49,229 nt of DNA from the NCBI GenBank assembly GCA_027859085.1, contig JAQIBJ010000103.1:1-49229 (forward strand). The letters run 5' to 3'. Under the pieces are notes generated by a model that was given only the letters and a program-made list of their open reading frames with translations, was not told where the DNA came from and searched no databases. Of the stretch, positions 41,135 to 44,966 are shown piece by piece (position 1 is the first letter of the stretch; each line of letters begins with the position of its first letter). Position numbers and translations under genes: made by a program. The stretch is from Mycoplasmatota bacterium. GTDB lineage: Bacteria > Bacillota_I > Bacilli_A > Izemoplasmatales > Hujiaoplasmataceae.

Positions 41135-41211
41135 GCGCTCATAGCTCAATTGGATAGAGCGTTTGACTACGGATCAAGAGGTTTCGGGTTCGACTCCTGA
41201 TGGGCGCGCCA
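41135..41211 (+). tRNA. tRNA-Arg (ACG)
   Basis: A cloverleaf with acceptor GCGCTCA/TGGGCGC, a D-arm with GCTC/GAGC, and the anticodon loop CTACGGA giving ACG (read as ICG after editing). The T-arm contains GGTTCGACTCC. The gene encodes the CCA end. Confidence 0.95.
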
Positions 41212-41216
41212 GTATT

Positions 41217-41293
41217 CGGGAAGTAGCTTAGCTTGGTAGAGCGCCTGGTTTGGGACCAGGAGGTCGCAGGTTCAAATCCTGTCTTCCCGACCA
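41217..41293 (+). tRNA. tRNA-Pro (TGG)
   Basis: Acceptor CGGGAAG/CTTCCCG, anticodon stem CCTGG/CCAGG with loop TTTGGGA giving TGG, T-loop TTCAAAT, CCA encoded. It starts five bases after tRNA-Arg. Confidence 0.95.
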
Positions 41294-41304
41294 TTATAAC
41301 AACT

Positions 41305-41326
41305 AAGAGTAAGGGGACTTACTCTT
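41305..41326 (+). terminator. Hairpin between tRNA-Pro and tRNA-Cys
   Basis: AAGAGTAAG-GGGA-CTTACTCTT with a weak T tail. Only 12 bp separate it from tRNA-Cys, so it may terminate part of the transcripts or mark an RNA-processing site. Confidence 0.5.
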
Positions 41327-41338
41327 TATCTTTTATAT

Positions 41339-41412
41339 GGACCCTTAGCCAAGTGGTAAGGCACGGGACTGCAACTCCCCCACCGCCGGTTCAAATCCGG
41401 CAGGGTCCTCCA
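41339..41412 (+). tRNA. tRNA-Cys (GCA)
   Basis: Acceptor GGACCCT/AGGGTCC, anticodon loop CTGCAAC giving GCA, T-arm GCCGG/CCGGC with TTCAAAT, CCA encoded, 74 nt. Confidence 0.95.
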
Positions 41413-41438
41413 TTTTTACTTAGGATGGTTTAGTTGCT

Positions 41439-41466
41439 TTGAAATTAATTATTTAAATTGTATAAT
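41439..41466 (+). promoter_or_regulatory. Promoter of tRNA-Lys
   Basis: TTGAAA (41439-41444), 16 bp, TATAAT (41461-41466), eight bases before the mature 5' end. This makes tRNA-Lys transcribable on its own. Confidence 0.75.
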
Positions 41467-41474
41467 AAATTTAT

Positions 41475-41550
41475 GGAGGATTAGCTTAGTTGGTAGAGCA
41501 CCTGACTCTTAATCAGGGGGTCATCGGTTCGAATCCGATATCCTCCACCA
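41475..41550 (+). tRNA. tRNA-Lys (CTT)
   Basis: Acceptor GGAGGAT/ATCCTCC, anticodon stem CTGA/TCAG with loop CTCTTAA giving CTT, T-loop TTCGAAT, CCA encoded. Confidence 0.95.
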
Positions 41551-43170: not shown

Positions 43171-43204
43171 ATTATATATTACAATATGTCATATATATAT
43201 TACA
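43171..43204 (-). promoter_or_regulatory. Xre promoter with paired tatattaca repeats
   Basis: The 9-bp direct repeat tatattaca occurs at 43175-43183 and 43196-43204, 21 bp apart (two helical turns). A minus-strand TATAAT lies at 43171-43176. This fits a dimer-binding operator, unproven. Confidence 0.45.
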
Positions 43205-43245
43205 TTATAAAATAAAAAAAATCAATACAACCTTTAAAATAAGTA

Positions 43246-43274
43246 TTGATTTTGTTTATTTCGATAGATATAAT
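43246..43274 (+). promoter_or_regulatory. Promoter of tRNA-Ala
   Basis: TTGATT (43246-43251), 17 bp, TATAAT (43269-43274), nine bases before the tRNA. Confidence 0.8.
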
Positions 43275-43283
43275 AATGATAAC

Positions 43284-43359
43284 GGGGGCGTAGCTCAGCT
43301 GGGAGAGCGTATGGCTGGCAGCCATGAGGTCGTGGGTTCGAGCCCCATCGTCTCCACCA
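43284..43359 (+). tRNA. tRNA-Ala (GGC)
   Basis: Acceptor GGGGGCG/CGTCTCC with two G-T pairs, anticodon loop CTGGCAG giving GGC, T-arm GTGGG/CCCAT with TTCGAGC, CCA encoded. Confidence 0.95.
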
Positions 43360-43369
43360 CTTGAATTTG

Positions 43370-43399
43370 AAGTTTATTCCTTATGAATAAGCTTTTTTT
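43370..43399 (+). terminator. Terminator of tRNA-Ala
   Basis: TTATTC-CTTAT-GAATAA hairpin, extended by AAG/CTT, with seven T from 43393. Confidence 0.75.
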
Positions 43400-43421
43400 A
43401 ATTTCTAGTAATGATGAATAT

Positions 43422-43829
43422 TTAATAAGAAATATAGATAAACGATAATAAGATACCTTCTGTTCCATTTATGGCAGCCGAAATACTGATTGCAACTTCA
43501 GGTGAAATTGTTCTAAACATAATAATCGTTAAACCGATAAAGGTAATGAAGAAACCAATACCATCGCCAACAGAGAATTTAAGACTCTCCTGAATGTCAT
43601 TAATAATCGTTTTTCTTAAACCAGTTCAGGAACTGATTGACGCGAGTGCAGCTGATATTGCGATGTGAAAAAGAACGCCACCTACAAGAACAACAGCAGT
43701 ACCAAGCATTGAAGAGTTTACAGGTAAAATGTAATCCATTGCGAGAGAGGTCGTTAATCCAGCTAATAATTCAGTTTTAATGTTCGTCGATCTTTCTTCT
43801 AGTTTGAACAAGTTCTTAATAAACTGCAT
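43422..43829 (-). pseudogene. Degraded AzgA/NCS2-type purine permease
   Basis: Three pieces of a guanine/hypoxanthine permease (AzgA/PbuG type, normally 430-480 residues) are left in one reading frame. The N-terminus runs FKLEERSTNIKTELLAGLTT to DYILPVNSSML. After a large internal deletion comes a short hydrophobic stretch ending ASISS and a TGA stop (43626-43628). The same frame then continues TGLRKTIINDIQESLKFSVG and IGFFITFIGL, a conserved mid-protein segment. A second deletion joins this to a late TIIM segment, ending at TAA 43422. The first stretch alone (67 codons) is not a functional gene. The purine riboswitch directly upstream supports the identity. Confidence 0.85.
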
Positions 43830-43970
43830 AAAAAAAATCCCCCTTATTTTTTGGTCTGTATTATAGACAAAAATTGAGAAGGATTTCTTATTTTATAAAA
43901 GTATTATAGTCCCATGATTTACGGTAAGGGGCAGAAACAATTAAACCTTATCTTCAATCATATATAATAC
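43830..43970 (-). promoter_or_regulatory. Purine (guanine-type) riboswitch with terminator platform, apparently decaying
   Basis: Minus-strand aptamer 43970-43901. P1 GTATTATA pairs with TATAATAC. P2 has seven pairs around loop GATAAGG. The junction is TTTCTGCC (usual TTTCTACC), loop 3 has ACCGTAAA, and GACTA carries the guanine-specifying C at the position numbered 74 in xpt. Deviations are A to G at position 52, A to U at 24 and mismatches in P3. Downstream, AAATCC (5' arm) and GGATTT (3' arm) enclose an inner stem, followed by eight T just before the ATG (43830-43886). The 3' arm also holds the ribosome site. Confidence 0.85.
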
Positions 43971-44015
43971 ATACTATATATGCTATCAAAGTTTATTTAA
44001 AAAAATAAGCATAAA

Positions 44016-44966
44016 TTAAAAATAAAACTTTTTAAATGATAATGGGTAAACGCCAATTCCTATAACTACCATAATAAAATATCTTAAGAAATCTAAAAAT
44101 ATAGCAATGATTGATAATCCAGGTTGATCAGATAGATTCTCTGTAGATAAAATTAATGAAAAAAATTCTTTTAAAACGATTCTAATGATGAAGACTATTG
44201 CAATCCCTAATACAAAGCGAATGATATTTCTAATTAGATTTTTATGATTTTCAAAATTGACATATTTTTGTTCAATTTCAATTCCGACCACAAAACCAAC
44301 CAAAGCACCAATCATTTTAGCGATTGTTTCAAGATTAAAATAAAAGAGATCTCCATCAAAAGTTGTACCACTTTTTGCTTTAACGAATTCAATGACAATA
44401 AAAATAATTAAAAAAGCAAATGCAAAAGCACCAATCAAACGATACAATAACTCAGGTTTTTTCATCCTATTGATAAAGTAATTTAATCCATAAACAATCC
44501 CAATTCCTAATAAACCACCAACCAATACATCACTTAAGTAATGAACACCAATATACATTCTACTTATACCAACTAAAATTGTGATAATAATAGCGAAAAT
44601 AAATAGGTATCTTTTCTTAAAGAAATAAGCAAGTCCAAAAAAAGTAGTTGCAGCACTTTGAGTATGACCACTTGGCATGGAATAACTTGATGAGGTTTCT
44701 GGCCTTAAATTTGTAATAGTATCATCCACAAGAAAGGGTCTTGGTCTTGCGATAATTACCTTTAGAACACTGTTAATACCTGCTGATATAAATATCGTAA
44801 TTGCTAGTCTTTTTCCATATTCTTTATTGATTGACCAATAGACGAGTCCTAAAACACCAATAATAATTGCTTCTTCACCAAAAAGTGTAAAGAATTCAAA
44901 TAAAAAATCTAAAAAGCCATTTCTATTTTCTTGTAGCCATTTAACAATGTTTAATTCAAAAGTCAT
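44016..44966 (-). CDS. PAP2-family membrane phosphatase
   Basis: A 316-residue lipid phosphatase-type protein. The three family motifs are present: KVIIARPRP (69-77), SMPSGH (96-101) and SRMYIGVHYLSDVLVG (135-150), with H101, H142 and D146 catalytic. About eight membrane segments are seen; the C-terminal 130 residues after the catalytic core add four segments beyond the minimal PAP2 fold. Substrates may be phosphatidylglycerol phosphate, undecaprenyl pyrophosphate or phosphatidate; sequence alone does not decide. GGGAG is ten bases before the ATG. Confidence 0.92.
   Translation of the reverse strand: MTFELNIVKWLQENRNGFLDFLFEFFTLFGEEAIIIGVLGLVYWSINKEYGKRLAITIFISAGINSVLKVIIARPRPFLVDDTITNLRPETSSSYSMPSGHTQSAATTFFGLAYFFKKRYLFIFAIIITILVGISRMYIGVHYLSDVLVGGLLGIGIVYGLNYFINRMKKPELLYRLIGAFAFAFLIIFIVIEFVKAKSGTTFDGDLFYFNLETIAKMIGALVGFVVGIEIEQKYVNFENHKNLIRNIIRFVLGIAIVFIIRIVLKEFFSLILSTENLSDQPGLSIIAIFLDFLRYFIMVVIGIGVYPLSFKKFYF

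Follow-up and report, generated by a model that had tools for sequence, protein, structure and literature searches.

When a transporter operon breaks down, does the riboswitch in front of it erode as well, or does the RNA keep a function? This question is raised by a short segment of a 49,229-nucleotide stretch of DNA (the window) from a Mycoplasmatota bacterium (genome G000; 1.71 Mb in 109 contigs, 87% complete), where the original prediction saw a purine riboswitch decaying together with a single wrecked permease gene.

A purine riboswitch in a conserved setting

The Rfam purine model RF00167 matched positions 43987-43887 of the minus strand over its full length (model positions 1-102) with 61.4 bits and an E-value of 2.6e-8, against a gathering cut-off of 37 bits, and this is the sole purine riboswitch that Rfam reports in the 87%-complete genome. 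P1, the L2 and L3 motifs (GATAAGG and CCGTAAA) and C74 are all present as had been described. The aptamer was also predicted in the right place, but the match runs 17 nt past the earlier end coordinate, to 43987. The riboswitch and the genes that anchor it are as follows, the coordinates of P1 and C74 having been read off the sequence:

43887-43987, minus strand: purine riboswitch aptamer (RF00167) with short flanks; cmscan, 61.4 bits
43970-43963, minus strand: 5' strand of aptamer helix P1
43908-43901, minus strand: 3' strand of P1
43909, minus strand: aptamer C74
44016-44966, minus strand: PAP2-family gene directly upstream of the riboswitch, a syntenic anchor; Pfam PF01569, 1.9e-27
43284-43356, plus strand: convergent tRNA-Ala gene, the right-hand syntenic anchor; Rfam tRNA, 59.4 bits

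The PAP2 gene is 77% identical to its counterpart in a congener and its stop codon lies 29 nt ahead of the aptamer match; the orthologue adjoins the riboswitch in the congeners G001 (Mycoplasmatota bacterium strain zrk2, CP076020.1) and G004. Downstream of the riboswitch follow, in this order, a terminator, an ATG, a broken reading frame (43829-43422) and the convergent tRNA-Ala gene. As a member of RF00167 the element stands before purine genes and has an expression platform: the terminator runs up to the ATG of an azgA remnant, and the operon is intact in G001. A cluster of four tRNA genes lies near the locus, at 41135-41547 on the plus strand.

An intact orthologue at the same place was found in zrk2, where the order is aminotransferase, GGDEF protein, CorA-like protein, alkyltransferase-like protein (these four named by sequence inspection), PAP2, purine riboswitch, azgA (459 aa, PF00860), an NCS2 permease of the uracil/xanthine type (435 aa), a calcium/sodium antiporter (327 aa, TIGR00367) and tRNA-Ala(ggc). 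The azgA-permease pair also stands behind a purine riboswitch in other genera of the family. At the same locus of G004 (L042, 5150-5552) azgA is gone and the riboswitch is kept; about 300 nt, containing another hairpin and T run, separate it from the second permease, and an azgA gene with its own purine riboswitch lies elsewhere in that genome (L041, 5380-6768).

Collapse of the transporter operon

Two deletions had been claimed for the permease gene; blastn and comparison of the junctions with G001 revealed three, of 150, 2568 and 714 bp, and the transporter block, 3.9 kb long in G001, measures only ~450 bp in the window. The 150-bp deletion lies within azgA and the 714-bp deletion within the antiporter gene, while the 2568-bp deletion runs from azgA through the entire second permease gene into the antiporter gene. 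The following pieces were recognized:

43636-43829, minus strand: azgA remnant 1, AzgA codons 1-65; 80% to G001 AzgA 1-65, E 4e-29
43626-43628, minus strand: in-frame TGA in place of the Leu or Ile codon of relatives; comparison with relatives
43529-43637, minus strand: azgA remnant 2, AzgA residues 119-150, past the 150-bp deletion; 84%, E 2e-15, blastn overlap AAT
43458-43538, minus strand: antiporter (CaxA/TIGR00367) remnant 1, fused to azgA at ATCGGTTTAA; 62% to residues 47-72, E 2e-8
43383-43464, minus strand: antiporter remnant 2, C-terminus and 3' flank, past the 714-bp deletion at ACAGAA; 69%

A 67-aa ORF (43829-43626, minus strand) begins with azgA remnant 1 and closes with the TGA, which was confirmed in frame at 43628-43626 as predicted; TGA is a normal stop in the window, where it ends 2 of 33 ORFs. 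The broken reading frame as a whole ends at a TAA (43424-43422). In piecewise blastp, 43829-43636 and 43625-43529 both matched AzgA (80% and 84%), and the proposed AzgA-type identity thus holds for 43829-43529; the tail, 43528-43383, consists instead of two scraps of the antiporter gene, which in G001 lies two genes downstream of azgA. The scraps scored 35.4 and 27.7 bits, with nucleotide matches as well, and a wreck made up of AzgA throughout was rejected because the tail matches the antiporter above the shuffled maximum of 22.7 bits (100 shuffles). The wreck itself matched nothing in Pfam or NCBIfam, and the identity of the remnants is therefore taken from the syntenic sister. Hence, there is indeed a wrecked azgA behind the riboswitch, but as part of the remains of a three-gene operon. 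The source genes are AzgA/NCS2-type permeases (PF00860) and the TIGR00367 antiporter, and compared to the full AzgA and antiporter genes only ~97 and ~40 codons, respectively, survive.

The ends of the deletions share sequence at each junction, namely AAT, ATCGGTTTAA and ACAGAA for the 150-, 2568- and 714-bp deletions, the two G001 copies of ATCGGTTTAA differing by one mismatch, a pattern consistent with short-repeat slippage. All three deletions preserve the reading frame, which may be due to chance (about 1 in 27) or may reflect that repeats in coding DNA tend to share codon phase.

Judged from its sequence, the azgA remnant is a pseudogene, made of pieces 80-84% identical to the sister gene and bearing a TGA and deletions, and the tail is, by its matches, a pseudogene of the Ca/Na antiporter (TIGR00367). 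Relaxed selection on the azgA remnant is shown by changes at 9-10 family-invariant AzgA residues, including F28S, G46V, A55H, A78D, P80Q and A89D, compared to none in G001; these are residues at which G001 agrees with every outgroup where the window differs, and the reverse never occurs. The dN to three outgroups was likewise 0.35-0.39 for the window versus 0.24-0.26 for G001. The short ORF was found as an intact gene in no relative examined, and G001 has a full-length azgA. Searches with PF00860 and PF01699 found no gene in the rest of G000 (87% complete, so that an intact permease may lie in the missing part), and the congeners G001-G004 carry one or two PF00860 genes each. The genome retains a Bmp-type nucleoside-binding protein (G000:C100:731-1612) and four phosphoribosyltransferase-domain proteins, and uptake of purines as nucleosides is possible.

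State of the aptamer and its expression platform

The three elements considered below are:

43932, minus strand: G52, replacing the U22-pairing A of the ligand pocket; 90-aptamer alignment and pattern scan
43830-43889, minus strand: intrinsic terminator of the riboswitch; RNA fold, -17.1 kcal/mol, z -3.4
43857-43865, minus strand: segment TATAATACA of the terminator loop, able to pair with the P1 5' strand as its putative antiterminator partner; 9-bp match

Aptamer positions were compared among 90 aptamers aligned with the covariance model, and the G52 and A52 forms of the core were sought by a pattern scan of 395 genomes of the class. The predicted departure from consensus at position 52 (alignment column 45) is real: 89 of the 90 aptamers have A, and G occurs only in the window. 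The G52 core pattern was likewise found in one genome of the 395, G000 alone, compared to 95 for the A52 pattern. The Watson-Crick pair U22-A52 stacks on the ligand (PMC7139962; PMC6649850). In the window the pocket bases U22, U47, U51 and C74 are present, A52 is replaced by G, and a U22.G52 wobble pair could form. U24, in contrast, had been read as a mark of decay and is ordinary, given that T occupies this position in 36 of the 90 aptamers and is common to both congeners at the locus. The mismatch suspected in P3 was verified as U57.U70, which weakens this helix and is A-U in both congeners at the same locus, and P2 holds a G-U.

With G004 as outgroup, three aptamer changes were assigned to the window lineage, a C-to-U in P2, A52G, and A57U, which breaks the P3 pair; all three weaken P2, P3 or the core. 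The two changes of the G001 lineage fall in L2 and at a P3 bulge. The changes in the window look degenerative rather than adaptive, and their number, three, may be below that expected of strictly neutral decay over the time since the gene died. Some ligand binding may remain, judging by a covariance score well above the cut-off and by the intact L2/L3 and other core bases. Elsewhere in the family, loci L076, L079 and L082 form a subgroup of purine riboswitches with L2 AATTTGG and a shortened L3 CCTAAT, possibly a variant loop-loop contact.

In an energy model that excludes kissing loops and ligand, the minimum free energy structure of the window aptamer is a rod in which the P2 5' strand pairs with the P3 3' strand, predicted at -14.1 kcal/mol versus about -10.1 for the native junction. 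The native junction is the predicted minimum in both congeners, the P1 of G004 being one pair longer. The predicted probability of native P2 and P3 is the lowest of the 90 aptamers, several others of which, not known to be dead, likewise fold poorly on paper.

The terminator is intact in the window. Its outer stem of 13 bp (arms 43889-43877 and 43844-43832) encloses an inner hairpin, a U run follows at 43837-43830, and the 3' arm overlaps the ribosome-binding stretch AAGGGGGA; the predicted energy of -17.1 kcal/mol compares with -13.2 in G001. A pattern scan that overall performed no better than chance listed no terminator in 43200-44100, having missed this one because of its long loop.

The P1 3'-strand 9-mer CTATAATAC recurs in the terminator loop, which gives the P1 5' strand two possible partners. 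The 9-bp match of TATAATACA to the P1 5' strand was equalled in 1 of 200 shuffles, and the complementarity, which spans 12 bp in G001 and 8 in G004, is kept in these congeners and in other relatives. Among 66 relatives with a T run, a simple block shuffle gave the match p <= 0.05 in 18 and p <= 0.01 in 14, counts that include relatives not independent of one another. Such matches come in unrelated sequence types (GGTTAGTATCAT/ATGATACTGACC and TCGCCAATA/TGTTGGCGA), which agrees with a putative antiterminator in which the terminator loop takes up the P1 5' strand. Terminator loops that contain a mimic of the P1 3' strand, with 8-14 bp to the P1 5' strand, were seen in many purine riboswitches of the clade (L040, L042, L080, L029, L112, L118, L026, L102, L111, L045, L046, L052, L076, L079 and L082).

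Moreover, in 19 RNAs the predicted energy of the P1/terminator state minus that of the antiterminator lay between -5.8 and +3.7 kcal/mol, with two exceptions: the window, the most skewed at -11.8, and G004 at -8.5. These are the two loci here known to have lost azgA, and the azgA-bearing sister G001 leans toward the P1/terminator state by -1.6 kcal/mol. The 5' extension of the antiterminator helix is weakened in the window. With a gap of -11.8 kcal/mol the window RNA looks locked in termination, as far as two cases and nearest-neighbour energies can indicate. The proposal that gene and regulator erode together thus fits the aptamer, with its G52, its weakened P3 and P2 and its predicted misfold, but not the terminator, which is conserved and predicted to be stronger than that of the congener.

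A probable relic riboswitch and its alternatives

The locus is most probably a relic guanine-class riboswitch in front of an operon collapsed by deletion. In the ancestor, a state that by homology zrk2 would have kept, bound guanine or hypoxanthine would hold P1 closed, and the terminator would then stop transcription of azgA, the second nucleobase permease and the Ca/Na antiporter, shutting off import. In the ligand-free RNA, the terminator loop, with its copy of the P1 3'-strand sequence, would capture the P1 5' strand, and transcription would read through. In the window lineage three short-repeat deletions and the TGA reduced the operon; we infer that the aptamer, freed from selection, then gained A52G, A57U in P3 and the C-to-U in P2, which would favour the misfold. 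The 5' extension of the antiterminator helix weakened, and the terminator remained intact. The operon is now deleted, the sensor probably impaired and the terminator alive, with no downstream target left. Given the changed aptamer, the weakened antiterminator and the intact terminator, the RNA is most likely a ligand-blind, constitutively terminating leftover, in which ligand sensing has probably been lost.

That the RNA remains a guanine-responsive terminator whose target alone has died seems unlikely to us. The 61.4 bits, the mostly intact core and the intact P1 and terminator would allow it, and a Mn riboswitch before a decayed exporter in Bordetella pertussis (PMC8546581) sets a precedent; against it stand a G52 unique in the ligand pocket, the weakened P2 and P3 with their predicted misfold, and the shortened antiterminator. 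A new specificity due to the A52G pocket, with the 67-aa ORF under its control as a gene for a small membrane protein, is most improbable: the sole core change does sit at the pocket, a ribosome-binding stretch and ATG remain and the three deletions keep the frame, but the changes in the ORF hit invariant residues, no relative examined has the ORF, the aptamer helices are weakened as well, and A52G is not among the specificity-variant positions of PMC9295807, which describes natural variants of the guanine riboswitch such as U51G. Equally hard to credit is that the collapsed operon is a chimera of a fragmented assembly. The genome comprises 109 contigs at 87% completeness and the junctions fall at short repeats, but an assembler would not be misled by repeats as short as 3-10 nt, synteny holds on both sides, and the remnants bear substitutions of their own (the TGA, changes at invariant residues) that no artefact would make.

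The reading of the locus as a relic is silent on whether selection acts on the terminator, and is compatible with the hairpin being kept as the 3' terminator of PAP2, where it would keep antisense transcription out of the convergent tRNA-Ala. The PAP2 gene ends 29 nt short of the aptamer match, the retained hairpin is stronger than the congener's, the tRNA-Ala gene lies convergent downstream, and no other terminator was listed in 43200-44100, by a scan that misses the long-loop riboswitch terminator too. However, the hairpin could have survived by chance at such a recent stage, and G001 and G004, whose switch still has a working target, show the PAP2-riboswitch order as well; we consider such selection possible but doubtful. 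The new role originally suggested for the RNA may exist in the form of a plain terminator after PAP2. Only tentatively do we extend this to a route by which a riboswitch dies through OFF-locking and exaptation, the aptamer decaying while the terminator is kept or strengthened for the upstream gene, with a distinct purine-switch platform in the lineage, whose terminator loop offers the P1 5' strand a P1 mimic to pair with.

The element shares with the RF00167 (xpt-pbuX) class the layout of the three-way junction, the L2/L3 motifs, C74, a putatively P1-controlled terminator and a nucleobase permease operon, and differs from it in G52 for an invariant A, weak P2 and P3, dead target genes and a putative antiterminator in which the terminator loop pairs with the P1 5' strand. 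Like the Mn-sensing yybP-ykoY riboswitch before BP3410 of Bordetella pertussis (PMC8546581), it is kept ahead of a non-functional transporter gene; there, however, the riboswitch was proven functional and the exporter gene is broken only by a revertible duplication, whereas in the window the loss of the operon by deletion is irreversible and even the aptamer seems to be decaying. The PAP2-riboswitch locus of G004 (G004:C1:951138, L042) resembles the window in having lost azgA and in its strong terminator and its skew toward termination, the second largest, but its second permease and antiporter are intact and another azgA with a riboswitch exists elsewhere (L041). In the literature searched, which included few subscription journals, we found neither a description of A52G nor a paper describing a decaying purine riboswitch. 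A riboswitch ahead of a decayed transporter is already known from BP3410, and the present case is ordinary in kind and unusually well documented by its syntenic sister.

A riboswitch may outlive its genes or die with them, but decay that can be set beside an intact syntenic sister is rarely described; this locus allows a part-by-part comparison, with the genes deleted, the sensor core mutated and the terminator preserved. An Rfam score above the cut-off does not equal a working switch, and the window and zrk2 provide a testable pair for how a riboswitch loses ligand control. For the organism, a relative of the DNA-degrading Izemoplasma bacteria, the findings suggest that nucleobase import has been lost.
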